Of a stretch of 57,474 nt of DNA, positions 8,401 through 43,500 are shown piece after piece. Within the stretch, counting starts at the first letter, position 1, and every line of letters begins with the position of its first letter. The DNA lies in assembly GCF_000003605.2 (NCBI RefSeq), contig NW_003140313.1:199798-257271 (forward strand), written 5' to 3'. This DNA is from Saccoglossus kowalevskii (lineage: Eukaryota; Hemichordata; Enteropneusta; Harrimaniidae). The notes under the pieces were generated by a model. That model made no database searches. It saw nothing but the letters and a program-made list of their open reading frames with translations, and was not told where the DNA came from. The position numbers were made by a program, and so were the translations under genes.

Positions 8401-10322
8401 GACCACTTTCGTTTGTTCACATGGAGCGCAAAGGCTGTAGCGTGATGAAAATAGAATTCGTCACTGAACCAAACATTAGCAAAGCTACACATCGGTCAAT
8501 ACGATCATTGCCATTCTTGACTGTTGTAAACACGTCTTTATAGGCTTTTCATGGATTGCTAAATTGAATTGTTTGCGTAGCCAAGTGTATGTATTAATCA
8601 AGTTGAAGTTGAAGGGTTATCATATGAAACTGAAATAATACTATTGAGTATGTTTGTAACATCACAGGAAGAGCAGAAGCTTATCACCGAGAAGAGATAG
8701 TCATCGTCGTCGTAGTCGAAGTCCTCGAAGACGACGTAGTAGATCAAGGGAAAGAAGACACAGATCACCTGGTAGCGGATTCTTCTTCTTCTCAGCTCAT
8801 TCCTATTTAACGAGTCGAAAACACAAACAAAATTTCAAATCCATTATCCGTGCAAAAATATCAGGAGCAGTAACGGAAAACTGTTTTGCTTTGTTATCTA
8901 ATTAAATGGATACCTAGAGGTTTCGTTAAATTTGCATTAATACATGAATGTGTCTGCAGCCAGTTCTCAACAGTTGTTAACAAGTCACTGAATACTGTAG
9001 TTTTTATATAAAACTATTTTGTTATTGTATCTTATGATCTTGCAGGCCACAGACATAGAGATGAAGACCGCCATAGAGATGATGACCGTCATCAACGTAG
9101 TCGTCATCACCACTCTCCATCACCAGAAGACAGGTATGCTTATCAACTTCGCAACTTCTCACAAAACTCTTTTAAGGTAGCGAGACTATTATTTGTGTTA
9201 CGATTTTCACATTTATTTATTATTTGGTGAAATGCACTATAAACTTTCATCTGATAAAGTCAACGTAACCTAGAATGTCATGTAAGTTGGTTAAAATATA
9301 GATTTTCTGAAGGGAAGCAATGTAGCTTCAGTCATGTTTTCCAAAATCAACAACACAGGTTTAATCTGTGTGCCTATAAGTTTCAAAGATAAACTCAAGA
9401 CAAAGCAATGTTAGGATGTGTTATCAGTAGCTATCTGACACACAATTAGTGTTTCCAAACATTTGAGTGGTTTGTCTCCGCCCCTGTTTATTTCACAGAT
9501 TAGTCATTTGCATATGAATGTGTCAGACACAAGGTCACACAGCCACTGAAAAAAATCATTGATTTTGGTGTTTTCATCTGTTGATTTTATTGAACTATAG
9601 CTATCCTATTCTTTTATTTTGTTGGTTTCCAATAGCCTTACACATTTGGATGCCCCTACACATGTTAAAACAGACTTTGATGGGAAAACAAGTCGCTTAT
9701 GCAGATAAACAAGCTTGAAAATCTTTGCTGTCACTTCATCGACGTTTTCTAAGAGTTTATTTTTTTCAAAATACAAGGTCTTTAACAAAAAATAACGTAT
9801 ACTTATTGTCGTCGGATTAACACCAAATTTTCACAGCTTTAAGGTGACAATGAGAGGAACTTGAATGTGTCCAGACAAACTATTTCATGGATTATTTACC
9901 AATGTGTTGTGGTTTGAGTTGGGGGCAATGCGACTAAAACAGAAATTAAAATTCAGGACACTACTTTAGTGTCAGAGGTTTAGATAAAAGGTAGTTAGTA
10001 AAATTTCTTCATATTTGAATTTATTTTTTTCAAGATTCAAGAAGTGAGGGGAACACCTGTTTTTTAATTTTGTCCAAATACTAATAATGAACCAAATTAT
10101 TCTTTTGCTGCAAATTCTCAAGGAATGAATGTCAATCTATTTAACTGCTGTCCCAGATTCTGAATTATTTTCTCTCTTGACAGACCTCGAAAACACAAGA
10201 AAAAGAAAAAGGAGAGAGACCGTGATAGAGAGCGAGACAGTCGAAGACTATCCGATAAAGATCCTGATGTTGCAGAGGCTAATGCTTTGAGAGCTTCTCT
10301 TGGACTACCGCCACTGAAGTAG
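2495..10322 (+). CDS. PRPF38A: PRPF38A, pre-mRNA-splicing factor 38A (nine exons)
   Basis: Exons 2495-2624, 3992-4151, 5067-5188, 5669-5796, 6742-6804, 7639-7745, 8668-8771, 9046-9133 and 10184-10322 join in phase to 1,041 nt, 346 aa. All introns are GT-AG; the donors after exons 6 and 7 (GTTTGT, GTAGCG) are weak. Residues ~1-180 are the PRP38 domain, nearly collinear with human PRPF38A: it starts MANRTVKDAHS and contains GTNPQYLVEKIIRSRIYE, TPFLCLTLKMLQIQPEKDI and an LLHEERLCDIILPR stretch. An acidic linker (exon 5) leads into an Arg/Ser-rich tail, and the protein ends EANALRASLGLPPLK, an ending I associate with invertebrate orthologues. PRPF38A is a nuclear component of the spliceosome B complex, needed for activation. 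The start is the first ATG of the conserved domain. Introns hold a foldback element, a MITE and a decayed transposase piece. Confidence 0.97.
2969..3519. mobile_element. Foldback element with reiterated CTCGACCCA motif in PRPF38A intron 1
   Basis: The left arm (about 2969-3075) repeats ACATCTCGACCCA-like units (at least six), and the right arm (about 3418-3519) carries the same units inverted (GGGTCGAGATGT). The arms can fold on each other around a ~340-bp centre. Flanking it are near-identical 15-bp direct repeats, GCTGGAGTGATTTCT (2954-2968) and GCTGGAGTAATTTTT (3520-3534), a possible long target duplication. There is no transposase, so it is non-autonomous. Confidence 0.7.
7769..7980. mobile_element. 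MITE, ACTGTAGAATAC family, PRPF38A intron 6
   Basis: This 212-bp near-palindrome starts ACTGTAGAATACTTTATTTT and ends with the inverse. The inverted arms continue through TTTTCGCT-GGAATT-like sequence, with a second inverted pair (TTTTCACT) inside. Relatives occur at 20528-20732, 25622-25731 and, more distantly, 33466-33646. It has no coding capacity. Confidence 0.8.
8410..8490 (-). pseudogene. Possible decayed DDE transposase fragment
   Basis: On the minus strand a short stretch reads FANVWFSDEFYFH, then an HVNK-like motif about ten residues on. WFSDE followed by an aromatic-His and VNK pattern is typical of the catalytic Asp region of Tc1/mariner-type DDE transposases. Frames on either side are broken, and only ~30 residues are recognisable. 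It lies in PRPF38A intron 6. It could be chance similarity. Confidence 0.3.
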
Positions 10323-13794: not shown

Positions 13795-15425
13795 GAGTGT
13801 ATAAATAAAGTGCAAGTCTAACGGGGTCGTTGTAATGCAATTGATTTTTTTTAGAGAACCAGCAAAGCAGAGCTAAAACTTTCTGTGAAAGAGATTTGAT
13901 TGAAACACTTTTTTTCAATTTCGTGTGCAATATGACCGTCCTGCTCTATGATAGAGGGACTGTGATAATATGAATGCAAATCCAAGTGTTTAATTCTGCC
14001 TTCAGTTGTCAGTCGATTCCCGTAACAGCTTAAATTTATTGCATATGCTTAAGATGTCTCGATTAGAACATTGAACAATTAAATTGCGGTGAGAGACTGG
14101 AAAAACTTTGTTTCAGTGCTGTGTCTATCAGTCATTCGGAAGTGTGAAAATAACAAATAACATGTACATGTCAATGGAATTGGTCACGAGTGTGTTTTTA
14201 CTTTGCACTTACGTTATACAAATTTTAAATAAATTTTAAATAAGTTTAGAAGTTGTAGTTAAAAACAAAATTTTCTGAGTGTAATCCCAGTGAATTTGGT
14301 TGTATCACATGTTTAAGTCCGAATAAAACGCATTGTATCATGTGAGCTATCTGGCTCCGATTTATCATACTATCTTAAAATTTATCTCTCGGTGTTTGTA
14401 TCAAACTCGGCAGCCATGTCGAATGCTACAATGGCGATGACTCCTCAGAAACAAGTACTCTTCTTTTCCACCAGGCGACATTTAGTATCATCTCATTTGC
14501 GACAATTGTGTCGAAAACGTTTCGGAGATGATGTTTTTTTTTCAGGACACGAATACACAATTTGCTATGGAATTGGAAAATTAAATATAGTGATTTTATC
14601 CTACATTTCATACAATTCAGAAGTTAAAACTTTTTTAATCAAAATATAGAATTAATATCTCCATTTCTGGTCAAGTAAATGGCTTTTTTCCCAAAATTTA
14701 GATTTCTCCTCAGAGCATCCATTACATTACCAACATTAAGGTTCAATGCTGCCTGATGTTGGTAAGAAAAGTAAACTCTGAAAATGTTCATTGTTTTTTG
14801 AGGCTAACTAATATTAAGTGGTTTTGGGATCAATACAAACACATTTGCTCCTGGCTCAACATCCTCTACAAAGCAGGTATTTGGTCATTTGTAAATCCTG
14901 CATATTTAATAGACCATTTTCCGTTCACTGCGAGAATCACGCGTTATGCGTGAAATCGAACGTAAAAACAGGACAAACAAAGGTCATAGCGTCGTAGTCG
15001 CGTCAAACATCGCGTGGGATTCGACAAACGCGAAAGTATTCTGGGGGACATTTCCATGCTTAATAATGTGCTGTCCACATTTGATGATAGGCAATTTCGA
15101 TTAAGTAAGGGTATTCGGAAGCAATATTCCTCTGTCGAAGCTGCGAAATAAAGAAATTCTAGTTCAAAATCAAATCGTTCGATTTTTGCGGCAGACGTTC
15201 GACGCGCGTCTTTTATGCATCTCGCGAGATCTCGCAATTGTACGGGAAATCACCTATTTCTATTCTCCCAAAGTGTATGCCCTTGATTTTGACCGCAATG
15301 TGATCAGCAGAATTGCTAAGGCTAATACAAAATGTATCAGTGACATACACTCTCCTTGTTGTAAACCTCTATGCAACTCAAATTATCCAGTGCTGAAACC
15401 TTTATTCATGGCACATTTGTATAGA
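13795..15425. other. Intergenic stretch, no gene recognised
   Basis: Small open frames occur (for example 14,392-14,649 on the plus strand, beginning with a Met/Ala/Thr-rich segment), but none matches a family I recognise and none has convincing splice sites. A short hairpin lies at 14,726-14,763 (TACCAACAT paired with ATGTTGGTA). The stretch 14,940-15,240 is richer in CpG than its surroundings. Confidence 0.5.
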
Positions 15426-15429
15426 AAAG

Positions 15430-16400
15430 TTTAACCCATTTAATAAAACTGCTGCCAAAATTAAAAACACTCACTGAATCGAGTAGGAGCCCCCATTCCA
15501 AGAAATCAAATGCTTTTTGAAAGTTAATTTTAATAACCACCCCAGGCAAATTTGTTTCATCATTGTAATCCATGATATTTTCTTTGAGCCTAACAACATC
15601 TCCTATATTTCTGTTTTTTACAAATGCTGACTCATGAATTATTTTGGCAGTACTTTTTCTATTCGTCTATGGGTTTTTGTAGCAATTTTGTAGTCTACGT
15701 TTAACAAAGTAATCGGTCTCCAGTTGTCCTGTCCTTGTCTTTTTTTCTAATAAAGTAATCATCCCTTGTAAAGGAGAGAATTCTCATTTTCATAAGCAGA
15801 AATGAGAGAGTTCACTACAAGTTTACCTATTTGAGGCCAAAACTGTCAATAGAATTTTGTTGACAAGCCATCATTTCTTTGCTGTTTATTCACAGGAAAG
15901 GACTTTACCACATTATACGATTCTTCTAGTGTAATGAGGCCTTCACATATATCTGAAAATTCACTAAGTAGTTTTGAGTATATTAGGATTTTAAAGAAAA
16001 CTGTTTTGTGCATTGTTTATTTCATTCAATTTGGATGAATATAGCTCATAAATGGTCTTTTATTTATTTATTAATATACTTTGACCGTCTATCACGTTTT
16101 GGTAGTACACCTCATATCTCTGCTAGCTCGTACCAATTGCATCGTGATAGTTCACTATACTGTCATCTGTGTCTATAGTATACTCTTCAACTGTTGTTTT
16201 ACTCTTTTTGTCTGGTCTACATCTGTTGGAAACAGGTTGTTAATTTCACACAAAGTTTTTAATTCTTTTTCTCATTTAGCAATCATTTTAGACTAATGGT
16301 TTTTAGCTTTTTCTTTGCTGTATTTAATGGATGTTTGCTTGATTTTATATTTGATCCAATCCCAGATAAATCTCGAGTCAACCAATTACTATTAGTATTA
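15430..16400 (-). pseudogene. Decayed LINE (L1/Tx1-like) reverse transcriptase fragment
   Basis: Reading leftwards, diagnostic LINE motifs appear in the right order: WDWIKYKIKQ and KYSKEKAK (pre-RT region, about 16,290-16,370), ITLEESYNVVKSF (about 15,920), NDGLSTKFY and QFWPQIGKLV (about 15,830), NWRPITLLNVDYKI (about 15,700), ESAFVKNRNIGD (about 15,620) and FQKAFDFLEW (about 15,515). The NWRPI-LLN-DYKI and F-KAFD-LEW blocks are the reverse transcriptase palm motifs of the L1/Tx1 group. Stop codons and at least two frameshifts break the frame, so it is dead. The FxDD active-site block is not found beyond the left edge. No promoter, tail or target duplication was identified. Confidence 0.85.
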
Positions 16401-19224: not shown

Positions 19225-20253
19225 TCAGTTACTCAGCGTGTTGTCTAGAAAGTCTGCAATAGCTTTTCCGATTTCATTTGGGGAATCTTCCTGCAAGAAA
19301 TGAAGTCCCTTCACAGTAACTTGACGATGGTTCGGCCAATTTTTCGTCACGTGTCTTATAGCATCGCTGAAAAATCCAGGGTCCCCATTGATGTACAATT
19401 TTGGAATGTCTTTCGAATCAGAAAGATACTTCACATATGCGTCAGTTATGTCAATCACGTCTTGGGGGCCATCTTCCCGTACTGGAATCTCCCTTGGCCA
19501 AGTCAGGGTCGGTCTCCTTGACTCTCCCTCTTCGACGTATGGCATGCGGTAAGCGTTCATCTCGTCTTCGGACAAGGTTCGTATGATTGAACTGGGAAGA
19601 AGCCTCTCAATGAAGAGATTCTTTTTCAAAATCATATCTTCACCAGCGTCTGAACGCATTGCTTGAAAATAGCTCCTGGCAATTTCTGGAAATCCTTTCC
19701 ATTCTGCCACAGACACCAGACTCTCCATATGAACGATGGCTTTAACTCTAGAGCGATGTTCGTTGCACCAATGGAGCCCCAGTCCGGATCCCCAGTCATG
19801 GCATACAATAACAAGTTTTTCTGGGAGATTCATAGCTTCAATCCAAGCCTTCAAATATCGGTACTGGTTTTTATAGCTATAATCGTGATTAGGAAGCTTT
19901 GCAGAATTCCCCATGCCAATCAGATCAGGCGCCAAACACCATGCTTTCTTCTGCACGTGTGGAATAATATTTCGCCACAGAAAAGAAGATGTCGGGTTTC
20001 CGTGCAGAAACAAGACTGTGTTGGTTTTGAACCCATTATGTGCAGACGAATCATAATAGCTCATTTTCGAGTCCAACACTTGGACTTGACGGCATTTGGA
20101 CACCCAGTCGTCCCAAGCAGCCGAAGACGTACTTCTCGAAGATACCGTATACATCGCTGGCGAGACATATTTTGCTGAATTTACTTGTGGTCTCGGGAAG
20201 TGGGACGCGAGCACTGTTACTCGATGCATGATTCTGAACGCAATGGAAGCCAT
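19225..20253 (-). CDS. Renilla-luciferase / haloalkane-dehalogenase-like alpha/beta hydrolase
   Basis: This is a complete single-exon gene of 342 aa. The start is fixed by an in-frame stop eight codons upstream and a good ATG context (AACATGG). Residues ~75-340 form a haloalkane-dehalogenase-type fold closest to the Renilla luciferase branch: HGNPTSSFLWRN (84-95, with the halide-stabilising Asn86), nucleophile Asp153 in CHDWGSG with Trp154 next to it, acid Glu177 in VHMES, and catalytic His318 in KGLHFLQED. All five key residues are present. Known relatives are the luciferase of Renilla and of the brittle star Amphiura, plus bacterial dehalogenases. Activity on coelenterazine or haloalkanes cannot be told from sequence. 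Residues 1-46 have no Asp or Glu and are rich in Arg, Ser and Ala, like a mitochondrial presequence. The lack of introns fits the proposed bacterial origin of this animal family. Confidence 0.95.
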   Translation of the reverse strand: MASIAFRIMHRVTVLASHFPRPQVNSAKYVSPAMYTVSSRSTSSAAWDDWVSKCRQVQVLDSKMSYYDSSAHNGFKTNTVLFLHGNPTSSFLWRNIIPHVQKKAWCLAPDLIGMGNSAKLPNHDYSYKNQYRYLKAWIEAMNLPEKLVIVCHDWGSGLGLHWCNEHRSRVKAIVHMESLVSVAEWKGFPEIARSYFQAMRSDAGEDMILKKNLFIERLLPSSIIRTLSEDEMNAYRMPYVEEGESRRPTLTWPREIPVREDGPQDVIDITDAYVKYLSDSKDIPKLYINGDPGFFSDAIRHVTKNWPNHRQVTVKGLHFLQEDSPNEIGKAIADFLDNTLSN

Positions 20254-20527: not shown

Positions 20528-20732
20528 TGTAGCAAAATACTTTATTTTAGCTGAAATTATTTTCGCTGACGTAATAGACTTTTTGGGTGTTTTGTATGGT
20601 GTTTATTTTCACTGATTTTTGAAGAGTTGAATATAGTAAAAACGGTATATTCGCTGGATTTTATTTTCACTGAACTATTCCTTCAGGGAAAATAGCGAAA
20701 ATTATTTCCAAGCGAAAATAAAGTATTCTACA
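20528..20732. mobile_element. MITE, ACTGTAGAATAC family, copy 2
   Basis: Imperfect inverted ends (TGTAGCAAAATACTTTATTT on the left, inverse of TGTAGAATACTTTATTTTCG on the right) and an internal CGCTGGATTTTATTTTCACT shared with the copy at 7769-7980. It lies between the luciferase-like gene and PEX10, so it sits within their shared upstream space. Confidence 0.75.
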
Positions 20733-22298: not shown

Positions 22299-23216
22299 AT
22301 GGCCCAATCTAGAATCTTCAGGCCATCAGGACCTGCTGAGATTGTGCGATCTAACCAGAAGGATGGGTTTTATATCAGTTACATGCGTGGTAGTCTGGCC
22401 AATATTTTCCAAACTTTTGCTGGTGCTCGTGCCTGGATGCAGTGGCGCAAAGAAATAGATGTATCAGCTGACTTGGCCTATTTCTTACTGACAACAGTAG
22501 CTGGGTACCAAACTCTTGGGGAGGAGTACTGTAATATCGTTCAAGTGGACCACACCGGAAGAGCGATCCCTTCACGTTCCCGAAGACTTGCTCACGTACT
22601 GCTGCAAATTGGAGTGCCTTATGTCATTGACCAAGCACTGAAATTTGTGCACAACCACATCAATACAGTGCGTACCATGCTGGGACTCTCAGACAAAGTC
22701 ACCAACATGATATTACAGTGCATACCTGTCTTGCGTACCAGCGTGACATATGTTCATCGCTTTCATTTAGCGTTATTTTATTTGCAAGGACTATTTTATC
22801 ATGTGGCAAAAAGAGTTGTGTCTGTTCGATACCTGTTAGTACGTGCAGGTATATCCCCCGATGTCTACAGGTCCAGTTACAGCCTTCTTGGCATGCTCAC
22901 CTTAACGCAGTTAACATTAACTTTACTATGGCAGCTGTATACAAACTTCGTAAAACCAGGGGTATTATTTCGAAGCAAAGTCAGTGATTTGAACATCCCA
23001 TCATCAGATAACTCGGAAACTGAGGAAGTGTATTTGGATCCAACAAAACGATGTTCTTTGTGTCTAGAGAGCAGAAAGAGTTCCACTGCAACGCCGTGTG
23101 GACACATGTTTTGTTGGACTTGCATAACTGAGTGGTGCCTGGCAAAACCTGAATGTCCACTATGTAGGGAAACTTTCCAACTCTCAAGACTAGTATGTCT
23201 ACAACATTTTGAATGA
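22299..23216 (+). CDS. PEX10: PEX10, peroxisome biogenesis RING E3 ligase
   Basis: This is a 305-aa frame in one exon; human PEX10 is of similar length (about 326 aa) but its gene has several coding exons. The N-terminal Pex2/Pex12-type domain (about 15-225) contains QKDGFYISYMRG, a RAWMQWRKE stretch and TVAGYQTLGEEY, all matching PEX10, plus hydrophobic helices that anchor it in the peroxisomal membrane. The C-terminal C3HC4 RING has all eight zinc ligands: Cys252, Cys255, Cys267, His269, Cys272, Cys275, Cys286 and Cys289, within TPCGHMFCW and ECPLCRE. PEX10 works with PEX2 and PEX12 to ubiquitinate the import receptor PEX5 so that it can be recycled. It is transcribed away from the luciferase-like gene and converges on the lipoprotein gene. 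Confidence 0.97.
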   Translation: MAQSRIFRPSGPAEIVRSNQKDGFYISYMRGSLANIFQTFAGARAWMQWRKEIDVSADLAYFLLTTVAGYQTLGEEYCNIVQVDHTGRAIPSRSRRLAHVLLQIGVPYVIDQALKFVHNHINTVRTMLGLSDKVTNMILQCIPVLRTSVTYVHRFHLALFYLQGLFYHVAKRVVSVRYLLVRAGISPDVYRSSYSLLGMLTLTQLTLTLLWQLYTNFVKPGVLFRSKVSDLNIPSSDNSETEEVYLDPTKRCSLCLESRKSSTATPCGHMFCWTCITEWCLAKPECPLCRETFQLSRLVCLQHFE

Positions 23217-25501: not shown

Positions 25502-28500
25502 TTATAGACGCTGCTTGATGATACCGTCCAATTTCTTGACTGGTCCAACGTACTGGTAGGCTGGTCCCCTTTCACTTGGTCCCAACTAAAAAAATAAAAT
25601 AAATAGAAGCTCTGTTATAACCTGTAGAAAATCACTATGGAATTCACGTTAAATTCATCAAAAATCAGTGAAAATAAATTCCATACAAAACGCTCAAAAT
25701 GCCTTTCCAGCGAAAATAAAGTATTCCACAGTATTATTTTTTTGCATTACATTTATAGCAGTGATATTAAATTTATCTAATTAGTATTGAAAAATGTACC
25801 TACAAATTTACAATCTTGGACAATAATTATGATTTTTTTAATAATACAATTACCACCTTTATTCTATTAGAAGCTCATCTCCAATAAAAACACACGTAAA
25901 TAATCAATGCATATAACAGTAAACTGGATCATTACATCTTTTGATCATAGACACACTTTTGTGTAAGCGTATGCGCTACTAATAGAGCAAATATGGTAAC
26001 ACATTTTAAAATCAAAATGGCTACCACAAGTAGGACTCAATGCTATCGGGAAATCACAAAATTATTGTTTCCAGGGCAACAAGTTCTGGTAATTTATTTG
26101 ACAGAACTTTTTAATCAGCAAAATACAATAATGCTTTTAAATTTTTATTGTCTATCTTCAAGTTTAACCTTTTCACCCTTAGTTCCCTCTTTTCATCACA
26201 AATTCATACAATTGTCCTGTTTATAGTCTGCACTTTCCTTTAGAAGACTGGGAAAAAAAGCCACATTTTTTGACTAAAAACTGAAAATTGACTCAAATTT
26301 TGTCTGTTGACTCCAAAATTAGGGTTCATTTTCAGAAATATTGAAAAGGTAGAAGTATGCAAAACTGGACATGAATGGATATGAAACTCAAGTGTGCTGA
26401 TGAGTTGGACTTACATTGGTTATTCTGATTGGTGTTGGTTCTTCACATGGACGACATACAGAGGTACCCATATCGTGTTCGTCTACAACGCATTCACAGA
26501 TCTGGCATGGAGATGGTTTGCTGGTGAACACCATACGTGGACAGAAAACATCTGAGAAGGATTTCTCTTTCATCATGTTGCTATCAAAGACAGTGCCATT
26601 GGTTTCCTGTGCCAATCTGGTACACTGGTTTTCATCGCCATGGATGAAGTCGCGGAACTCCTTGGAGCCATATGGGTTGTTGATGTCCTTGCTGCTGAAA
26701 ACAGCTCTAACGTCATAACCTGAATTACAAAACCGGAAATTAGTTTACGTTAATCTCAGTAAATATATCCTGTATTACTTGATGTATAAGAAAGTAAATT
26801 AAGTACACTGAAGCAGACATGATTCACAAACTTACCGTAAACCATAGCGGTCATGCTAGCTTTCTTGATACTGAAGCCATTGTCGGACAAAATGTGGAGA
26901 CTGATGCCTTGTTTTTTGAGTATGCTAGAAATCTCATCGTAAGATATGGCAGATGATCTACAGTCGGAGCAAGTCAGGAGGATGATACTCTTGGCAACGC
27001 CGGTACGGAATGGATAACTTGCAGCTTTACGCAGAGCAAGGAATGTATCATTGTTCTTGGAGTTTTCGGAGAAGACCAGACTGTCACTTCCAAGGATGAA
27101 CTTGCGTCCCTTATTGAAGAGCTTGGAATCGATGGTGTGAGAGTGTTCCTTGGAGTGAACGTGATCACCGCCATAACCAACTAAACCAAAACGGTTGTCT
27201 TGAAGACCTATGATAGAAACAAACAATAACATGATATTGACATTTGTATCATGCTCTGAGGATTTATTTCTACATTCTAGCAAGTAGACATGTATTGACC
27301 TTTGCTATATAGTCTATTACAAACTAAATATATCATTTGTCCAAGCATGACTTACCTTGGCTCTTAAATTCAGCTTCAATCTTACGAACCAACTCGTGAA
27401 GATTTTCAGCGCTGTCTTTGTTGCAAGATTTCTCTTCAACTACGAAAACGACATCGGCAGATTTGGGTACATTCATTTCACCCTCAGTCAGCTTAATCTT
27501 TTCGTTCTTGTGGAAGACATCACCAAGAGGTTTCTCGCAGCTAACTGGAATATAAATCAAATGATACCCAGTGACACACTACATTGATGGACCAACTGCA
27601 AATTTAAGAGGAGCTGTATGATCATAACAAACTGAGCTCAAGTTAGATGCAGTAACAAATCTACATTTTCCAATTGATCAGCGAGTTTACCTACCGCAGT
27701 TCTTTGGCATGTAGACAGGCACATTGTTCATCTTGCATTCGTGGATGTAGGCAGCAGCAGAAGTACATGGAACAGATTCAATATCAGCAACGTTCTTAGA
27801 GTCGCACAAGTCATTCATGCACATTTCCATAAATGGTTCTGGGTTAACCTGCAAAGAATTGAATTACCGGTAAACGTGATACTTTCAAATACAGACAAAT
27901 TCTAGAGCAACAGACCGAGAGATCTAGAGATAAAGTGATAATTTCATAATCACTAATTTGATATCTAAGTTTAAAGATGACAGGATGAAAATTGTCTGAA
28001 AAAATGGGCGACAGGCTTAGTATATATTTTACAAATAATGATATAAATTTTCATGTAATTTCACTATTTTGATATTTCTTGCATATTCATCATGTTTTAC
28101 TTTGACGGTTTTGCGAGTTTTATTGTAATATTACATTTTCATTGAAAATTATGAAAATTAGATCAATGAATGAATATTGTATTTACAGTAAGGGCAGTAC
28201 AGTGGAATATATATATACTTACAATTCCGAAGCACAATCTCAGGGGAGAGGTAAGGTTCTTGAACAGATTCTCACACAGTTCTTTCTTTGGATTACGACT
28301 CATGTTCTCACATTTACTGGCCCTATTTCTGTGGCTGCTGCACTGCCTGCCGACTTCCCAGCTACGAGCCAGATCTTCAGCGGTATCAGTAATACTGCGG
28401 TAAGAGGTAAGGAAGTCGTCCACTTTCTCGTTGTTGTAGGTTCCGAAAAGACCTGCTGTCTTTCCGTAGTACCATCCAGAGGTGGTCACAGTGCAGAAGT

Positions 28501-31500
28501 CACGGGGAAGATTGCATACAACAGTGACTCCATGTTCGTTGTGTACACGGACGGTACTTCCTTCACGGGTGATGGTTGTGTTCTTGTGTTGGATTGGCAA
28601 CTCAACTGGGGTATCTGCCACATTCACCTGCCACGAGAATGAAAACAGAGACTTCGTTAAGAGAAATGATTCAGCAAATTAGTGTCGCAAAAAAATTTAG
28701 AAAAAGTTTACAGAGCAGGACTTGAAGCAATTGATATAATCTCTATGTGTAGTGTAAATGTAGATATCAAATATGGTTTTCATGGTTAAAATAAGTAATT
28801 TAATCATCGGACAAAGAGTTAATGTGTGCTCCAATGCACTGAAATAATCATTCAAATATCTATCTGCTGTAAACCTCAAGAAATCACAGGTAATGTCCAT
28901 TTTCAAGTATGGCTAATTTCAGAAAAATTGCTAGTTATTTGGTGCTTGGGATGATGACCAAGCAAACTGAGAACCAACTCTGAAAAGTCTCTAAGTTGAT
29001 AAAAGCCACTGAATTATCATGAAACATCCATACAAAAAAACAGAAAATGTAGTATTATTTGTGAATACTTACAGAGAAGTCTGGGAAGATTTCAATTTCC
29101 TTGCCTTGGGTGATGACTGTTATGGATTTCTTCACTACTTTTGGACTATCGCGGTCATAGTTGACAATAACGGTGAAGTTACCATCAATGAAATCACGGG
29201 CTAAAACGTAGCTACAAGCACCAGCATATTCATAGAACTTCTTGTCGAAAGTCATGTAGTGTTGTTTTCCAACGATCATGGCATGAGCTGTAACAACGAT
29301 TAAATAATCTGGTTAGGCACGATACTTTAAAACAGCAAACGCAGACAGGCAAGTTGGCATGTATATAAAAGAAATTATACACAAGTTTGCACTGCAAATA
29401 CCAAATTTTATTAGTACGGTGCTATAGAACCTGTGCTCACACAATACATATATGATCGCAACAAGTCATTTTTTCATGACCAGTATTCAAAAAATGCTAC
29501 GTTTGTTTTTATATGTGAGCATCTACCAGATATGTGCTTCTGATTGAGCAAATAAAGTTGTCAATTTTGAGGTGTACTTTGTGAATGTATTTAACTCACA
29601 ATTTGATTATAAGCCTGGGAGGTCTGCCATTATAATAAAATTTACATTACAACTTACTTTTGAAGGGTGGGATCCAGTTGAAGACATCTAAAGTTGGCTT
29701 GAAAGTGTAGAAAAATTGATACAAGTCAATGTCACCCAGACCAGATAAATAGCAAGAGGAGACTGCATCGGATAAATCTTCTGGCAAGGTTTCGAATGAA
29801 CGGATTTCTACTGGCAGTGGGATGGTGACAAACAGGTTACCATTCTCTGGCTCAAACTTGATGTATTTTTGTCTGTACTGCTTGATGTCAGTCAACATTC
29901 CCAGACCTTTAGTCAAGGTTTCATTCATTGCTCTCTTGATATTCTCCTCAACATTCCAGTATTTCACGGCCCATTTAGCCTGCCACAATAATAAACAAAG
30001 TAATCTTCATTCAAAGCTCTCTTTCTCAAAAAAAAATCAAATCTATGTTATCGATAGATAACCAACATGTCAAGATCACGATTCAACTCAGAACCAACAA
30101 ATTTTACTTTAATTCTATTCACAAAATAAATGCGTATCATTTTTTTATCATTTTTTTTTACAAAATTTAGATGAGGACTTGTAGCCATTAGAAAAATTCA
30201 TAAATACACAAAAGAATCTGGCACTGAAATAGGCCATATGCATGACCTCCAAAAGGTCACACATCCTGGTACTTTCTAGGGGTACAAATTCACTATCAGT
30301 TCAAATTTAATTATTATTTTCTCACAAAAATGCAAGCAGTTATCTTTGAAATTCAAAAACAGTTAAACATCGTAAAAATTGATGTAAATTATTGGAAATT
30401 GTTGCTGTGAAGGAACAAAATACCCCCTGAAAGTACCAGGATGTGTGACCTTTAGGGGTTATGCATAAGGCAAATTTTGACAGCCAATATAATAATATTC
30501 AAAGGCATATTAAGCAGTTACACGAAAGCTCCTATATAAATATTTACGTACAGAAGTCTAAGTTTCACGCAAGATTTCTGTGAGCAAATATATAACAAAT
30601 TCATTACGATTTACATACCTCCTCAAGAACAATATAAGGCACCTCCTTCAGTTCCAGAAGAGAAACAATTTCTTCATATTCTGGCATTCTCTTGATCTCC
30701 TCAATTTTTCTGAGGGCACTGTAGTAGATTTCGTCATACTTTTCTTTGGATTCATCCACCCAGCTCTTGATGGTGCTTTCTTCCCAGCGACGTTCGATAG
30801 AGTTTCTTGCATCCTCAATATAGTAGTTCCATTTCTGTTTATATAATTGGTAGGTCACCTTTGCGCTTCTCTTGTACTCTTCAAAAATCTCTCTGGCTTC
30901 CTGCTTGAGCTCTTCAATACGAACTGTGAAGACATAGCAACAGTTTGACAGTTTGCACTGGTAAAAAGAGGCCTAAAATGAACTGTTAAAAAAGGTAGCA
31001 CAGATGCATTCGTGTGGATGGGGTGATTAAAATCCCCCAAAGACAGATCGTTCGGGATTTAGCTTTTACACTCTGTTGGAGATGTGCTTCTAATGGAACA
31101 TGTATATGCATATGATTTTCAGCCCCACTTATAGTCTTCTACACAGTGAAGAACAGTGGGAACATACTTGAAATTTGTATGGGTACAAACTGGTCTAAAC
31201 TGGTATATCAAGAATGATTATGCACTTACTAGTCATTCTATTGTATTTATCTTTAATCTGATAAAACTTGGTTCTGTCCAGCCCCTCGTATTTCTCCTTG
31301 AGTGTACGTCTGACATCTTCCCACTTTCTTTCAATCTTTTCTCTAAGCTCGTCCCATTTATCTCCCAATTTCTGTTTATATTCGATGTATCTGATTTTCA
31401 TGTCCATCTTGGTTTCTTCGTATTGACGTCTCATCTTCTCAACCATTGGTTTAACATCACTGTAGTATCTCTCCATCAGATCTCTCTTCACATCATCCAA

Positions 31501-34500
31501 GTATTCCTTCAACTCATCCAACTGTTCTTGCCAGTACTCCCTGATGTCTTCCAAGTCTTTCTTAGCCAGGTAGGAAACATCTTCCCATGCCTCTTTCACT
31601 TCCCCAACCACTGGTCTAATTTCATCGTAGTAGTACTCCTCAGAATTGTCCTTGATGTCACTCCAGGTCTTCTTGAGTGTTTCTTTCAACTCCTCTGCGT
31701 ATTCCCTGCGGAAATCCTCGTATTTTTGTTCCATTTTGTAGAGGATATCGTTGTACTTGTCTTTGACAGTCTTCTGCATCTTCTCAAACTCTTCCTGCAG
31801 TAAGCAAAAACAGTTTTTAAATAAAGCCGTACTCAAAATGTAATAAAAACTTCTTATTATGCCAAGAATTTGAAAAGTTGATAGTCACATAATAATATTT
31901 TGAAATCTATCAATTTTCTGATGCATGGAGCCATAAATATTTGTACAGAACATTATAAACATATGGTATTACATAGGTTTGCGGAAAGAATAGGTAGTCC
32001 ATATGCATTGTGTTACTGAAAATTGAAATCCCAGATAACATATTGAATTTTAAACTTTTTAAGAATAATTCAGATAATAAACCCATACAGAAAGCAGGCC
32101 TGGAACTCTATGGAGATATTCAAGACAACTGCCTTGGTGCCGAAACAGCCTTCGTGGCCTTAGAAAAATGTAGATAATTCCTACATGCTAAGTTGAGTCA
32201 GCTTGATGACTGCCGAGGAGGTTGGTCTTAAAGTACAAAAAAAGAAATTGTATGCGACTGTATTGGTGACTTGAGGCACAAAATGTTGTGGCCCTTGATT
32301 TTTTGGGGTAATTACATTTATTTTGTATATAAAATGTGAATTTCATTTCGCCAAATTCCATGACAAAAGTAAGTGTGAATTTCATATTGCCAAATTCCAT
32401 GACAAAAGTAAGTGTGAATTTCATATTGCCAAATTCCATGACAAAAGTAAGTGTGAATTTCATATTGCCAAATTCCATGACAAAAGTAAGTGTGAATTTC
32501 ATATTGCCAAATTCCATGACAAAAGTAAGTGTGAATTTCATATTGCCAAATTCCATGACAAAAGTAAGTGTGAATTTCATATTGCCAAATTCCATGACAA
32601 AAGTAAGTGTGAATTTCATATTGCCAAATTCCATGACAAAAGTAAGTGTGAATTTTATATTGCCAAATTCCATGACAAAAGTAAGTGTGAATTTCATATT
32701 GCCAAATTCCATGACAAAAGTAAGATATTTTTTTAAGAACATCATAACACTGTATAATTTTCTGTTACATCAATGATGTGCCAGCACAACTACTTGCATT
32801 ACAGGAACCTTTTGCGTGGCGTTGGCACATTACATCTGGCACACTGGTTCTATTTAAATGCCCAACACTTACTCTGTATTCTGGTTTGTTCTCCTCATAC
32901 AGCTCCTTGAGTTTCCTGTTAATTTCACTATACAGTCGCTTCACCTCTTCAATATTATCTTGATTCTCGTAGGTTATTCTACGCACTTCATCGTTAACCT
33001 TGAAATATACGTCCCAGTATTTCTCTTTCAAGACTTGGACGATTTCTTCATTCACAGTACGTTTTACAGACTCAGCCATGCGTTGGACTCTCTCCTAAAA
33101 CATAAATGGTAAAAGTACAGTCATCAGGCTGGAAAACCTTCAACACAAGACACACTCACTCTCGAGCGAGACTACATTATGGCATTTATGCTTATCTATT
33201 TTAAAATAAAAACATACCTTGATTTCATATGGCATTGATGGGCGCCAGTAGAGACGGGTGTGCAGCAATTCGGATGTGTTGAGGCGAGTGTAAATCAGGC
33301 CATCGGTGATTCTTTCACCGTTAATCTTGCGGTGAGCTCTCACTTCAATAGCAGTTTTGTTCAAGAACTGGGCAGTGAAACGAGCATAGTCTTCGGTTCT
33401 CTCTACAGAACATTCAGAAAATAGCAGATATGAAATACAAAACTTGTAAGGATCTAAAAATGAGTACTGTAAAATCATTTATTTTCACTGACATTAAATT
33501 TTAATGTTTTTTATTCACTGTGTTTTAATTTCACGAATTTGTCAATGAAACAATGATTTTTTATTGTTATTTAACAAGTTCACATAGATTTAATTCAGCG
33601 AAAATAGCGAAATTAAAACCCAGTGAATAATTAATGCATTTACAGTCCTGTAAAATCTGTATCAGAAGCAATTGAGAACCAAAAATAGAAATACAAATAG
33701 AAATACAAACCTGGGTTGTGGTGAAGGGTAATTTCAAAAAGACGATCTCTGGTATTGATATCAATGGTATTAATCATTTCCTTGGTCTTATCAATGGTAT
33801 TTTTCAATGTCATAAAATAGATGGAATGCTCAGAAGTAGATCTGTTTTCAAATCTTCCTTCCATTTTTAAGTTCTTCAGTGGATTTTCAGTCTGTGGGGG
33901 TGGTGAACAATCAAGTTACATGTTGGTTAATATCAATAGTTGTTAAAATATCAGTATTTTCATCACTTTTGAATGCTGTCCCTGGTTAATTTGTTAACAA
34001 AAAGATCACAAAATGAAGCTGCTAAGTACACCTCTCAAAGAGAAATTACAAATGAAGTTTCAATTTTATAAAAATTTAGCTGAAATTAAATTTGCCATTC
34101 AATGTGATTCTTGATCTTCCCATCCAAAATTCAAGGTGTGAATATTTTAAAATTTTGTGAAACTGTTAGTTAATTTTATCATCATTTTGGTCCATACAGA
34201 CATTTTCAGATATTGCTTTTAATTTTTTTACCAAAACGTTAAATTTTTATCAACGTTTCATGTGGGAAAAGGAACAGAATGTACACAATTATTTTGCAGA
34301 TGGTGTAAAAAGTTCACAATGACGTTACCAAGGGTTAAATTCCAGTGAAGCATTGGTGCCTCTACAGTATTAAATATTCTCATTACAGTACATACCTCAA
34401 GAATGAAAGTCTTGTCTTTCTTGTTGACTTGGCTGTTGAGTTTAACATTGTTGTACTTGTCCTCTTGTTTGTAAGCCAGATTGATGGAAGCACCATAGAT

Positions 34501-37500
34501 GTCTTCAGACTTGGAAACCTCACTGTTGGCAAATTAACAAAATAGTCATTCAATGCACTCAATGTAACCTTTTCACTACCAGTTCCCTATTTTCACCACA
34601 AATTCACAAAATAGTCCCATTGTGAAAAAATAGCCAAATGTTTGGAGTAAAAACTGAATACTGATACAAATTTTGTCTGTTAGCTCCAAAATTAGGCATC
34701 ATTTCCATAATCATTTAATGATTGGGTAAGTTTGTACAAAATAAGATTGTGAGTTGCATTCATTAATAAATCAGTAGATTAGATTTTACTCACTTATTCA
34801 ATTCAATATCAACGTTGTTGTACAGATGACGAGCCTCAGTGATCAGAGCAAAGCGCATTTCTTTGAGAGAAGATTTGTTTTGAAGTTTGGTCAGGAAATA
34901 GATTTCCTTTTCCTTCTTTGGGCTGTATACAACAGATGTAGCAATGTTGAAGATGTCAGCACCATCCATGAATTTGGCTTCAGTGGTCAGATGGAGATCC
35001 TATTAACAAAACCATAACAGTTGAGAAAAACACATTTTTTTCTTTTTCTTTTTTCATTTATAAGATTAAGATTAATTGAACACTTCTACAAATACCTTTA
35101 AAAAAAATATTTTTTTTTTTATAAATAAAAAAATAAGTTTGAATTTTACTAACCTCTTCCAGTTTTGGATGCTTGAAGATAATGTCAATCAAATGATGTT
35201 TCTTGATAGTAGTAGTGAAGTTGTGATAGACAGTCTCAAAGCTAGTTTCCTTCTTATCATCCCATTTGTAAGTAACCTAGCAACAGAAACACTGACATCA
35301 TTAACACAATATGAACAGCAGACGATAACCTTTAACTTTTTCACCATCGGACTTTCTCACCTAAATTTGTTTGCACTCTTTTATTATATTCTTCAATATT
35401 TTTGGAAATAAACTCTAGACAAAATGCGAGTCAATTTTCAGTTTTTACTAAAAAAAAATTGACTATTTTTATTCCCAAAAAGAAGTGCATACTATAAACA
35501 GGACTATTATGTGATGAAGTCAATGGGGCTGACAGTAGTAAGAAATTTAAAACAGCAATTGTCAAATATCACTGTTCAGATTTTTAAATTACTGTACTTG
35601 CTCTATTTGAAGTGCATAAAACCCCCAAATTGAATTTGTTGTGAACTTATTTGTTTTATTGTGACTTATTTTGATTATAGATAAATTTCAATCCTTATTC
35701 ATACACATGCATTACTAATAGATGGTATGTAATTATTATAAGTTCAGTTTTTTTCATATTTTGTGTATTATTTGGTGAGAAACACACTAGAAATGGAGAT
35801 ACAAAGAAGTAGCTTCTCCTATAGGTTTAATTAATTCAGCTAATGATAGGAAAATGGAACTTAAAGATGCAAGGTGTCTGATGGCTACTACCAGATTCTC
35901 AAAAACAATGTTTATTGCATTATATTAATATCACAAATTGACTGCCACGATATTTACCTTTCCTTGTTTCTTTTCTGACGATCTGAACAAGTTCAATGTA
36001 ATTTCTGGCTCACGTGGGATTAAAGGTAGTTCAACTGGGTGCTTCAGCTTCAGGGTGATATCAAATTCTTTTTCATCAGTGCTGGTAATATGTTTGCAAC
36101 TTCCTTCCAGGGATACTCGCTGGTCTCGTTCTTTACGTCCCCATTGCAGTTCAACATCACCGCTATATTCGTCATTGTTGCGTTCCAAATTACCATCAAT
36201 CGTGATAGATTTCAGAGGATGTTCAGATCTCAGGGGGCTTTCCAATTTGACGATCAGTTCACGGCGGAAGTGATGCTCGGATAAACGTGGGATTGTGTGG
36301 ACAATTTCCATTTCAATCTGAAATGTACAATAAACACATATTAGTTGTAATATTGATAGCAAAACTGTGAATTATACACATGGTCTTGAGAATATCTAAT
36401 TAAATAAAGCCTTTAAAACAACACATCCTCATACAATTTAGAGAATAAATTGGTATAAAATAAAAAATATAAGCAATATTTTCAAGATTAACAAAGTTTA
36501 CCTTCTTATCCAAAGAGTACGAAAGCTTGCTTTCTAAGTTGAAGTTCTTTTCAGCATGTTCAAGGTGGAACTTGTAGTCTACTGGTCTGGTCAGATGTCG
36601 GTCACAGTTAAGATGGAAGGTGGCATCATGTTGCAGTCTACGCTCACTGGTTCCGTTGACATAGTCAACATCAACACTGAATTCGCTATGTCCATCAAGC
36701 TTAATTTCCAACTTGCTGCTGAGGTCGCGTTTTCCTTTCTCACCGTTCAAGGAAACAACAACAGTCTTCTGTGGGTGAGTGATAGTGAAAGTGATCTCAT
36801 GGTGGTTCTTGTCAGCATTAACTGGTGTCTTCTCGTATACTACTTCAGTTCGCATGGTCTTCGTTGGCTCCCATGTCAGATCAAATCTGGTGTTGTAGCG
36901 ACTGGTTGTATTATCATGATGTACAAAGACAGACATCTGACGACTTGGGTGCTCCAGTCTGAAAGTACCTTCTATCTCGGTGTGATACCTTTGGCTCTTG
37001 TTGTTAAGGTTCAGATTCATTCTCAACTTCTTACCATTGTTCCACTGGAAAGACATCTCGGATGATAAATCTTGCTTGGTCTTCTCCACTGTGAATTCAG
37101 ATGTGATGGTACGTCTTGGAGTAGTGATATCCATGGAGATCTCGTGGTGGAAGCTGTCATCGGTGGTGTAATTTCCATAGCCTAAGGCGACAGTCATCTC
37201 TTTCTTTTCTCCGATCAGTGGTGTGTATTTGTATTCAGTCGCAAAAGAATATTCTCTGTCTTTTCTCTGAACAAAGCTAAACAGATGAAGTTGGCGTTTT
37301 GGATGGCGGAAGTTAAACTCCACTTCATGACGAGCATTTCTCTCTTCACCGGCATCTTCATAACGGCTTTCAACTGTGAAAGATTTCTCTGTGGAATATT
37401 GGACAGTAACTTCACTCTGATACAGCTTGGTGGTGTTTTCAAGGTTCACAGTCAGCTGCATGTCACGGAAGAGACGGAATGGTGTGTTGAACTTAACGAT

Positions 37501-40500
37501 TCCTTCATGCTGGGACTTTCTGTTATTGCCTTGGTTGTTGTATTCTGTTTCAAATGTGATGACTCTATTGGGGGCATAGGTAAAGCTTGTTTTGGCATCG
37601 GCGTGGCGACTGTTCTTGTTCACATTGCCTTCGAGAATAATATCACGTCCTGGATAACTGAGCGTAATTCTACTGTCATGCTTCAACTCGTTGCTGTTTG
37701 AGTTGTTGTTGTATTCACCTCGGAGAGTAACTCTCTTGTTTTGTTCCCATTCAAATGTAGTCAAGCAGACATGGTTGAGTGGTCTCACCTCCTCGTACTC
37801 GTGGCGCAAAGATACTTTACGGGATGGGATAGTCACTTCAAATTTGCCGTTCTTCTTCTTCAGTGAACTGGACTCATCTCTCAATTCAAGGAGCATGCCC
37901 AACTTCTTTTCTTGTCTGTATTCAACATTGAATTCAGACTCCAAGTACTGTTTGGTATGTTCATGTTTCTGGGTAATTTTGACGTCAAAGTCGTAAGCTG
38001 GATGTTTAAGTTCTGCATTCAAATCGCCTTTGGTTACATAAACATTGCTTTCATTCTTCATTTCAAAGTTCAAAGTGATCTGTAAAAATGAGAATTAAAC
38101 TGTGAATTTCATGTAAATTATACAAATGTACAATAAAAGCAGACATATATGCCGCCACAATAGCTTTAGCAGAAATGGAGACATTAACATCACCAATTTT
38201 GTTAGTTCTAGTACATCCTTCCCTCACCTTTCTCTCTCCCTCACCTCTCTCCCTCTCAATCCAGTTCCACACATATTCCGATAAAATGAAAATTTGAGGC
38301 TTAAGTAGATTTGGCAATATATCAAATACCATCAACTACCCAGGAGCACCAATTCATGTGCATTTGTAATAGTGTTTGCATAATTACCGTTTTAGATTCA
38401 TCATTGCAGGTTCTGGGACCATAGCACCAAGTCAAATCCAAGCTTCCAAGTTTGCGTTGAGCTCCCTTGATGATTGCTTCACCTTCGTAGTTGTTATTTG
38501 GATATTGAGACATGGACATACTTGTGGTGTACTCATAATGGTTCACTTGCTGTTAAATAAAATAAACAATCTTCATAAATTAAAAGCATTAACATAAAGA
38601 ACTTGGATGTAAAATTTGAACAAATGACATGTAACAGACGTTGCCCAGAACACCCTTCCATTTACTTTGATGTTTGTCGTTTTAGAGTTGATAGTTCATG
38701 TTTAACCTTTTCACTAACAGACTTTCTTGCCCAAATTTTTCAGCACTTTTTTTTGTATTCTTTCATATTTTTGTCCCAATCGTCTGAAGCAAAGTGTAGA
38801 CTATAAACAGGACTATTTTGTGATGAAAAGGGGGAGCTGATGGGGAAAAGGTTAAATTAAACTAGGATTAAGTCAGGAGACACAGCAGCAGAGTTATTTT
38901 ACCTCATCAGTTCTGTCACGGAAGATACTAGACCAGACCAGAGTTTCAGTTCTCTCACTTCTAGGGGTATATCTCAATTCAAAATCGTTTGAGTTGTAAC
39001 GAGAGTTATACTTAAAGACATGGCTCATTTCAAGATTAATCTTGGGATGGCTGAATGTTGCATCAGTAGTGATCTTTTTCTTGTCATCTTCTTTAGATAA
39101 TGATGTGCGACCTTAAAAGAGAAAAGACATATATAGCTCCATTTATCCATCAACAACATTCATATCTCGTGATGATTTATCACAGAATTTTCTCCATTAG
39201 TCCATATAACCTATATACTTGTTTACTGAATCATTCAAATATTATTTATTTTGACAATAGAAACACCTCTGTTTTTAAGGCATTTACAATTTTGCTAGGA
39301 TAACACAGGATAACAAATGTCAATATTGTTAAATAAATGGTGCATTCACATAAGAACAACAAAAATAATTGAGACCAAAATGACCTGTACTGTACTTACC
39401 AACCAAAGTGATCTTAGGTTCATCAGTTCTTTCGAAACTCATATCCACATCTACCATCTGTTCTGGTTGGTGTGTGACGGTTCCTCTCAAGGTGGTATAT
39501 TTCATCATGGGTACGCGGATCTCAACGGTTGGCTGGTACCTGGTTTCATATCTGGTGCTATCAATGGCCACTTCAGCATTGGTGACAAATTCCTTCTCAT
39601 TGTTATAGTTGAGAGTGAATTCTGCTCTCTTCAGAGCATCCTCATTAAGAATCTTATGGTGAAGAGAGGCGGTCTTATCAAGAGCTTCCATGGACATATC
39701 AACAACAAAGCTCTTGAGCTTTTGATGAGCGATTGTACCGCTCAGGGTCATCTTCTTAAAGTCTGTGATCTGGACTGAGAAATCTGGAGTTAATTTAAGG
39801 TAGTTTTCCTCCTTTTCAATACCAACTTCAGCATTGCCGGTGACACGTTTCTCGTTATTATAGTTGAAATCTAGTTCAAACTTCTTTGAGGACTCTCGGT
39901 TGAGAAGTGTGTTCTGCAGAGTAATTCTTTTACCGAAACCAACTGCGGTCAGATCCATATCCAAGCTGCGTTGTTTTTGGTGGGTGATGGTACCACTCAG
40001 AGTAATTTCTTTACTTTCTGGGAGGCGAACCACTACAGATGGTCTCATACGTAGTTGATCTCGTTGTTCTTCGAAGCTAATTTCGGCTTCAGTGCTGTAG
40101 CGTTTTTCGTTGTTATAGTTGAGATCCAATTCAAGTTTCTTCAAACTCTTTTCATAGGTCAATTTGTTCTTCAGATTGACTGACTTGCCCATACCTTCGA
40201 TGTTTGCATCAATGTCTAATCTAAGGTCCTTCTGGTGATCGATGGTACCAGTTAGTTTTATGTCCTTCAGCTCTGGACAGATGATCTCAACGGTAGGTTT
40301 CAAAATGAGACGATTGTCAATTTTATCAATTTTGACTTCGGCGTTTGTAATGTATTCTTTTTTGTCATAGTTGACATTGAACTCCACTCTCTTCAGATCA
40401 TCTTCGTTGACAAACTTGTTTTTCAGAGTAATCTTCTTCTCCATACCTTCTGCAGTTACGTCAATGTCTATGCTGCGACCCTTCTGGTGAGTGACGGTGC

Positions 40501-43500
40501 CAGTCAGAGTTATCTCTTTCATTTTTGGGAGGCGAATCTGTACAGATGGTCTGTAGCGGATCTCGTCATAGTACTTCTCAATAGAAACCTCAGCATTGGT
40601 GAACAGCTGTTTCTCATTGTTGTAATTGATGTTCATTTCAACTCTCTTCAGGTTTGTCTCGTTGGAGACTTTACTTTGAATGTACGTCTTCTTACCAAAT
40701 CCATCCACAGTCAGATCAGCTTCTAGACTACGTCCCTTATTATGGGTAATGGAGCCAGTTAAAGTGACGTCGTTTCTGGAGGGTATACGGATCTCGATGC
40801 TTGGCATGTAGCGTGTCTGCTCAGAGTCTCTATCAATTGAGATCTCGGCATTAGTGGTGTATTCTTTCTCGTCATTGTAGTTGAGTTTTAGTTCAACTCT
40901 CTTCAAGTCGGTCTCATTGACAATCTTGCTTTGGAAGGTTAACTTCTTACTGAGAGACACCAGATCAATGTTGACAGCCTTTTGTGCACGGTTCAACACA
41001 ACATCTACAGAGTGAGTGCGTGGGATGCGAGTTCCTGGGGTACCAATCATGAAGCGAATAATATCACTTACTTCAGTCTTGAAGTTGACACGTTTCTGAA
41101 GATCAAAACACATACACAAAGAGTGAAATTAGAGAAATAGATCAATAATCACAAAGATAATAATCTAGACAATTACAGGATGATAAGAAACACTTGACTG
41201 TTACCTTCTGTACTTGATATTTGGCTTCCATCTCGTAAGACATCAGGGTTCTGTCGACCTTCTCAAGAGTGACTTTAGCACCGAATGGTCCAGTCAGTGG
41301 GAAGAATGGAGCTTCAACCTGTATGGAATGAAAAATTATAACCAAAATATCAAAAATACACGTATAAACTTTTCCTACTTCATACATGTTGTATAGCTCA
41401 GTAATTTTCAATAAGTTTTCTTGGGAAAATGAATGCATACCTTGTGAGAAGCATTTGGGTATCTCAGTTCACCACACAATTTGACACCAGCCCATTTCTC
41501 TACAATCTGTCCAGAGCATTTGTTATGTTCACGGTAGTTTTCTCTGATACCTGACAGTTCCATTGGGTACTCACTGTTCAGTAAGTACAAGGTGTTGCTG
41601 GACAGTGAAAAAATATGATATTAAATTATTTATATTATTACATACTGAAATGAGTTTGTGATGATATCAAAATTTAATTCATACAATATTTTGTGAAAAC
41701 TGTATTACTGCTTCAAACTACCTAAAAATCAGGCAATTATGCAGTAGTGATCTGAATTCCACTGGAATCTTGAGCCAGATAGTGAGAGGCTTTCTCAAAA
41801 TATTGTCCTGACTAATTCCCTTAACTAATTGAATAGTGATAATTCCTTGAAGAGAAAATTAAATTAAGCTTACCTAACATCAATGATATCAATACGGTTG
41901 TCAGGAACATTAAACTTGACCTTGAAACTTTCACCGCTATCCAATGAAATGCTGCCATCTAAGACGGTGGAAGAGTGCATGCGAGTGCGCATTCTCAGAC
42001 CAGTACGTGCAACAAAAGCGTTGATGCTCATTTCGCTGCTGACTTCAATTACTCCACTGTGAATGAAAGATAAACAACAGATATGAAACAAAAGTCGCAC
42101 CAACATTCATCGTTTTTGCAGAGTATTTATCCGTACATTAGAGAAAACCATGTACATAATTATTTCACCATAAAATGCATAATGGCAAATAGTTTGTTTC
42201 AAAGGAAAGTACAAACCTTGGGCGGATCATACCAGTGACATTCAGACTTCTTGGCGCCACTGCAATTTTACGGAGATCGACCTTACCACTGAGTTTCAGA
42301 TTGACGGAGGCAGTGCTGTTGACAGCTATACTCAAGGGGAATCCACAAATAGTTGGAGTGACAAAAGAACTCTCCATAAGGATCATATTCTTAGTGAATT
42401 CTCTGGTTTGTTCATTGGACAACTTGATGAGAAGCTCTAACAGATTGATGGATTCTTTCTCTGGTTGCATCCAGTCGATATCTTGGAAGTCAATGAAGGA
42501 CATTTCATTGCCGAACATTTTCAGATACATACTTCCCTTTGGTTGATCCTCGCGTTTAGCATTAAACTGTAAAAAAAAATATCAGATGACATTTACATAA
42601 ATTGTCATAATAACAAAACTTGAGTATTGATCACAGTTTACAATAATGTCACAAAGTTTTCACAGAAGATAAAGATAACTTACTCTATCATTCAGGTTGT
42701 CTAGTTTGCTTGGTTTGATGGCAGAACGCTTAACAACGCGATTCTCCTTTGCTGGTTTAACCATATCCAACAGGCTGTTATCTGGGAAGTAACCATTGGG
42801 TCCAAAGAATTTCTCCAGAAGATAATCAAGACCTTCAACACGGCCACCAAACTCAAACAGATTGATGGAATATCCAAAAAGATCAGTGGTCATGTTCAGC
42901 ATACCGGAACGTGGAACGTAAGATTTTGGTGAGAAGACAACGTGGCTCTCAATGGTACCTCCAACATTCAGTTTTTCTGTGAATCAAATATACAAGAGTA
43001 TTTTATAGAACCTGTTTTCCAGTTTGTACGAATTACACACCACCCAATGATATATCTGTAAGCATCGTAAAAACTTCATGAGAAATCTTATCCAACAAAA
43101 TCCTCACCAGAAAAGAGAGTTCCCTCTAAAGCGCGTGAGAACTTCCTTGGATCCTTATTGAAATGCTTCATGAGTTTTGTATCTCTGACCATCTTGCGGA
43201 GTTCTTGTTTCATTGGGTCATCAGTTTCATTCAGGTTTGTCAGATGGCTCCATACAAAGGATCCAACTACGGAGAGACACATGGAAATTGTAAATGACTA
43301 CAACCACCATCTCTTCATTATTATTATTTTGGGGTAAGGAAAATAAAATAATAAAAGATTACAGTAGACAATTGAATAAGTAGCACATATTTGTACAGCT
43401 ATCCAATCCTGCAAATTCTAAGCAGTACCTACCCTGGTTGCTGTCTTCCTTCTCAAGAACATTATAGATTCTTTCGAACAGTTCTGGAGTTGGGCATTTG

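Follow-up and report, generated by a model that had tools for sequence, protein, structure and literature searches.

The acorn worm Saccoglossus kowalevskii carries a complete single-exon gene that likely encodes an animal HLD-II haloalkane dehalogenase, one that would give very weak coelenterazine light at most. The sequence of the encoded protein is more in keeping with an ordinary dehalogenase of the family than with a functional luciferase, and this is the reading we favour. The gene lies in a stretch of DNA of 57,474 nucleotides (hereafter the window), which sits in a 625-kb contig of the Saccoglossus assembly, and its features are as follows.

19225..20253, minus strand: single-exon coding sequence of 342 aa, a haloalkane dehalogenase / Renilla-luciferase-like alpha/beta hydrolase (frame, profile and structure-sequence matches, alignment)
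20119..20253, minus strand: codons 1-45, a basic N-terminal extension without Asp or Glu that appears mitochondrial-presequence-like
19657..19752, minus strand: loop L9 with the beginning of helix alpha4, residues 168-199, an approximate span (alignment; role as given in parts of PMC8203615 and PMC11851775)
18976..18981, minus strand: likely polyadenylation signal AATAAA, 243 nt 3' of the stop

The initial annotation, made from the letters alone, had described a complete 342-aa gene at this place and named no strand; the gene is indeed present, on the minus strand, as an unbroken ATG-to-stop frame of 342 codons without an intron, and on the plus strand a reading that begins at 19225 runs into stops. 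When the window was put through 40 simple base shuffles, the longest run without a stop had 181 codons (mean 133.5), and this maximum, together with matches to solved structures down to 1.8e-148, argues that the frame did not arise by chance. The start codon stands in a good context, ATCAACATGG, with an in-frame stop 8 codons upstream. Nested inverted repeats lie at 20536-20727, some 300 nt 5' of the start codon; their arms measure 17 nt (94% complementary) and 15 nt (93%), and they perhaps represent a small transposable element.

Several comparisons place the protein in the Renilla-luciferase-type family, as had been proposed from the sequence. The NCBIfam haloalkane dehalogenase profile NF002938 scored 354.3 bits, well above its cut-off of 241, which none of 14 control genomes passed, and the Pfam match is Abhydrolase_1. 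A search of the PDB matched 200 distinct sequences, and among the best 60 of these the top seven are reconstructed or engineered ancestors, from AncHLD-RLuc (1.8e-148) to Anc238Loc (1.8e-132), followed by chains of Renilla luciferase (RLuc) at about 1e-98 and then by other haloalkane dehalogenases from 2.2e-89, including LinB at 1.1e-82 and DhaA types at 1.7e-73 and weaker. In one alignment AncHLD-RLuc was 71.8% identical to the acorn-worm protein (over 291 positions), LinB 48.7%, RLuc 47.7% and a gammaproteobacterial relative 47.6%; the first value may be partly circular, because the ancestor may derive from deuterostome sequences like the acorn-worm protein itself. Plasmid records gave 359 matches, all below 60% identity, with LinB at the top (48.2%) among the best 20 of the 359. 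On a Paenibacillus plasmid (L011, 1054-1140), an annotation reading 'luciferase family protein' adjoins a haloalkane dehalogenase gene.

For the phylogeny we used 14 rows, namely the acorn-worm protein, RLuc as the sole other animal row, and 12 bacterial sequences (the gammaproteobacterial relative and eleven of the 359 plasmid matches). The acorn-worm protein and RLuc form a pair with support of 100/99, apart from the 12 bacterial sequences, and the end branch of the acorn-worm protein (0.33) is shorter than that of RLuc (0.81). Hemichordata are reported to have dehalogenase-like proteins, and all metazoan ones are placed in HLD-II (parts of PMC12059646).

It is highly improbable that the gene is a recent separate transfer from bacteria, or bacterial contamination, instead of an old animal gene. 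Its single exon and the single copy found are what such an origin would offer in its favour. Against it, the 625-kb contig holds a PEX10-like frame and vitellogenin/apoB-like exons nearby, the nearest bacterial relatives among the matches listed are 46-49% identical to the acorn-worm protein, third-position GC is 47% in the gene compared with 41% in the neighbouring PEX10, and a constrained tree that put the protein among six LinB-side bacteria, leaving RLuc outside, was rejected (p-AU 0.003, for a group chosen post hoc). Contamination in particular was rejected, as animal exons adjoin the gene.

The rest of the window holds further features. An unbroken 305-aa frame at 22299-23216 (plus strand) encodes a Pex2/Pex12 domain and, at its C-terminus, a RING finger; it is the PEX10-like frame mentioned above. 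On the minus strand, exons with Vitellogenin_N pieces, an open beta-sheet and a VWD domain (28163-28627) extend over about 28163-47187 and appear to belong to one large lipid-transfer protein gene; among them lies an apolipoprotein-like helical frame that falls below the family cut-off (31195-31836, minus strand). A frame at 32188-32745 (minus strand), in which the 13-residue unit TFVMEFGNMKFTL occurs ten times, is probably a minisatellite and not a protein. Additionally, there is a LINE reverse transcriptase-like fragment at 15406-15666 (minus strand), with a weak RVT_1 match of 16.3 bits against 29.6, and an Arg-Ser-rich frame, RSRSPRRRRSRSRE, at 8660-8905 (plus strand), which resembles an exon of an SR splicing factor.

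In the assembly as a whole (572 Mb, 4830 contigs), at least one gene of the family was found, both by protein search and by family-profile search. A candidate second copy on contig C2340 (L018) was rejected, with 45.7 bits against the cut-off of 241 and no Asp-Trp pair; its frame carries a GHSLG motif, which we take to be a form belonging to serine-nucleophile hydrolases. A scan of viral contigs for relatives gave 14 pattern matches and no relatives.

The catalytic pentad of the family is complete, and the alignment puts N86, D153, W154, E177 and H318, the very residues that had been named at the outset, in register with RLuc, AncHLD-RLuc, LinB and all 12 bacterial dehalogenase rows. Since the pentad occurs in every one of these bacterial rows, it cannot separate a luciferase from a dehalogenase, and as a sign of luciferase it was rejected. 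The motifs around these residues, HGNPTSSFLWRN, VHMES and KGLHFLQED, begin at residues 84, 174 and 315, respectively. The suggestion that they are nearer to Renilla luciferase than to generic hydrolases holds only in part: VHMES and KGLHFLQED are identical in AncHLD-RLuc and also in RLuc8-type PDB chains, and HGNPTSSFLWRN is more like the HGNPTSSYLWRN of LinB and AncHLD-RLuc than the HGNAASSYLWRH of Renilla. The counterparts in wild-type Renilla luciferase are presumably VHAES and KGLHFSQED. Further, C106 of the acorn-worm protein occupies the position of Cys73 of RLuc. This cysteine is said to be present in every metazoan RLuc-like sequence (excerpts of PMC5413902); because 5 of the 12 bacterial rows also have Cys there, it is a weak marker of the animal RLuc-like clade.

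The residues that line the coelenteramide pocket, and the cap loop, are more informative in this regard. The difference between luciferase and dehalogenase is reported to be set by the cap loop L9 with alpha4, and by loop L14 (parts of PMC8203615 and PMC11851775); AncHLD-RLuc became a highly efficient luciferase when it was given the L9-alpha4 of RLuc8 (PMC8203615, in part), and transfer of L9 and L14 onto the same protein raised the light more than 400-fold (PMC11851775, in part). In the RLuc complex, W156 and K189 contact coelenteramide, as do V146, I150, I159, F181, F261, F262 and I266 (passages of PMC8203615), and a rim aspartate, which we infer to be D162, is described as conserved in luminous species (passages of PMC12040472). 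In the alignment, W156, D162 and K189 of RLuc correspond to F188, S194 and S222 of the acorn-worm protein. Among the other contacts, I159, F181, F261, F262 and I266 are kept, V146 is replaced by Leu and I150 by Ala. Of the kept residues, I159, F262 and I266 are shared with RLuc but with no bacterial row out of 12, F261 is shared with RLuc and two of those rows, and I159 is absent from AncHLD-RLuc as well. The differences from RLuc need to be read with some care, as Trp at the 156 position occurs in 2 of the 12 bacterial rows and Asp at the 162 position in one, so that neither is a clean luciferase marker. At residue 194, LinB, AncHLD-RLuc and RLuc all have Asp where the acorn-worm protein has Ser, a state that also differs from AncFT-type constructs bearing an RLuc fragment, and 11 of the 12 bacterial rows have no Asp there.

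The gap pattern of L9-alpha4 speaks for the dehalogenase reading. RLuc and AncHLD-RLuc carry an inserted residue ahead of the loop Trp that is missing from the acorn-worm protein and from 10 of the 12 bacterial rows, and the alpha4 residue that is missing in RLuc alone among 16 aligned rows is retained in the acorn-worm protein. The loop stretch has a total length of 33 in both the acorn-worm protein and RLuc, and it is the placement of the gaps that differs. Because this pattern is that of most bacterial dehalogenases, dehalogenation with at most very weak light is what we would expect of the protein.

Taken as a true coelenterazine luciferase serving a light system of the animal's own, the gene would have the pentad, the pocket residues I159, F261, F262 and I266 and the pairing with RLuc against the 12 bacterial sequences on its side. 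This explanation is nevertheless very unlikely, given that the equivalents of W156, D162 and K189 are not kept, that the alpha4 deletion of RLuc is absent, that the pentad is common property of the bacterial rows and that S. kowalevskii is described as non-luminous (in excerpts of PMC5413902). The initial annotation had left the choice between an animal luciferase and a non-luminous dehalogenase relative; the substitutions at these three positions and the description of the animal as non-luminous favour the second, and the pentad, shared as it is, lends nothing to the first. A literature search on the light chemistry of acorn worms found no matching paper.

If the protein works as a dehalogenase, as we favour, its chemistry can be outlined from what is known of the family: D153 would attack the halogen-bearing carbon, N86 and W154 would keep the halide in place, and water activated by E177 and H318 would release the alcohol. 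The outcome would be dehalogenation with at most very weak coelenterazine light, like that of AncHLD-RLuc or of the brittle-star protein DafA. AncHLD-RLuc dehalogenates like modern enzymes and gives almost 7000-fold less light than RLuc8 (PMC8203615, in part), and DafA of Amphiura filiformis is a dehalogenase whose light is weaker than that of AfLuc by four orders of magnitude and than that of RLuc by five (PMC12059646, in part, where the kcat of RLuc is given as about 4 per second). The sea urchin protein DspA is described as a dehalogenase giving no light (excerpts of PMC5413902). DspA and DafA are thus animal members of the family with reported dehalogenase activity (parts of PMC5413902 and PMC12059646).

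Family membership is nonetheless no guarantee of activity, as 1,2-dibromoethane was not dehalogenated by crude extracts containing the other Amphiura HLD/LUC proteins that were assayed, and afLuc alone among the Amphiura proteins is termed a functional luciferase (in the parts of PMC12059646 drawn on here); by the same token, the acorn-worm protein may have lost both activities. An alpha/beta hydrolase that no longer dehalogenates and acts on another substrate, for example an ester or an epoxide, would fit those inactive relatives and Ser194, although most bacterial rows likewise lack Asp at that position. The complete pentad and an NF002938 score far above the dehalogenase cut-off make such a change of substrate unlikely.

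Among the known proteins in the alignment, the one most identical to the acorn-worm protein is AncHLD-RLuc (PDB 6g75), which is not a natural protein: the two have in common, besides their identity, the pentad, VHMES, KGLHFLQED and a complete alpha4. They differ in that the acorn-worm protein is one residue shorter ahead of the loop Trp, carries S194-Y195 where the ancestor has D-I, has I in place of T at the 159 position, and extends further at its N-terminus. Renilla luciferase (RLuc8 types, PDB 2psj among others) shares the family, the pentad, Cys73 and I159/F261/F262/I266, but its W156, D162, K189 and L9-alpha4 gap pattern are absent from the acorn-worm protein. The bacterial HLD-II enzyme LinB shares the pentad, HGNPTSS-LWRN, F at the W156 position and the L9-alpha4 gap pattern; unlike the acorn-worm protein, it is without Cys73 and the N-terminal extension and has L-T at F261-F262.

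The first 45 residues appear mitochondrial-presequence-like on compositional grounds, with five basic and no acidic residues. The chance of 45 residues without Asp or Glu is 0.002 from the protein's own composition, although the folded domain also holds a 41-residue stretch of this kind. Residues 5-22 form an amphipathic stretch with a hydrophobic moment of 0.55, a value exceeded by two windows elsewhere in the protein. No such extension is seen in the alignment in LinB, 7pw1 or L002. In two ancestral constructs the N-terminus aligns with part of it, at roughly residues 35-50, so the extension may date far back within the animal family.

The mitochondrial contig indicates what kind of animal the host is. 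On the mitochondrial contig (17,037 bases), COX1, found by Pfam, is inverted; among the other genes, to which we gave putative names from their translations, the order is ND2-ND1, and the frame of ND5 lies directly against that of CYTB. The stop-to-stop COX1 frame has 10 ATA codons, a single AAA, which stands at a lysine position, and no AGA or AGG; several of the ATA codons lie at positions that we take to be isoleucine in other animals. An inversion of COX1, a transposition of ND1 or ND2, AUA read as Ile and AAA as Lys are reported for S. kowalevskii (passages of PMC3121625), and nd5-cob adjacency for two hemichordates (passages of PMC2697986). The early hint of an acorn worm is thus borne out by mitochondrial gene order and code, which point to an animal of the Saccoglossus type, most likely S. 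kowalevskii. Two RLuc-like proteins of S. kowalevskii, XP002730984 and XP002738321, were listed and used in trees in 2017 (parts of PMC5413902), and the gene described here is probably one of them. They are likewise RLuc-like and from a non-luminous acorn worm, and they amount to two records against at least one gene found in the assembly. The gene is therefore known in kind, and probably also as an individual gene.

As to a physiological role, the clearing of halogenated alkanes would be a guess. The substrates of haloalkane dehalogenases are alkyl halides and not aryl ones, so any link between the gene and the halogenated aromatics of enteropneusts is only a suggestion. Accumulation of such aromatics by enteropneusts is reported in parts of PMC6315191. 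A bolder idea, which we consider doubtful, is that the protein is a natural, little-changed descendant of the bifunctional AncHLD-RLuc, a dehalogenase and latent luciferase with a partly Renilla-like pocket and mitochondrial import, in a non-luminous host with organohalogen-accumulating kin; if true, a pre-luciferase state would still be living in hemichordates. Luciferases are reported to have arisen separately in octocorals and brittle stars from the animal dehalogenase family (parts of PMC12059646), and the acorn-worm gene alone leaves this accepted account unchanged. The gene represents a hemichordate data point for the animal dehalogenase family, and its product, with its high identity to AncHLD-RLuc and a branch shorter than that of Renilla, is a good natural protein for testing the function of the ancestor.
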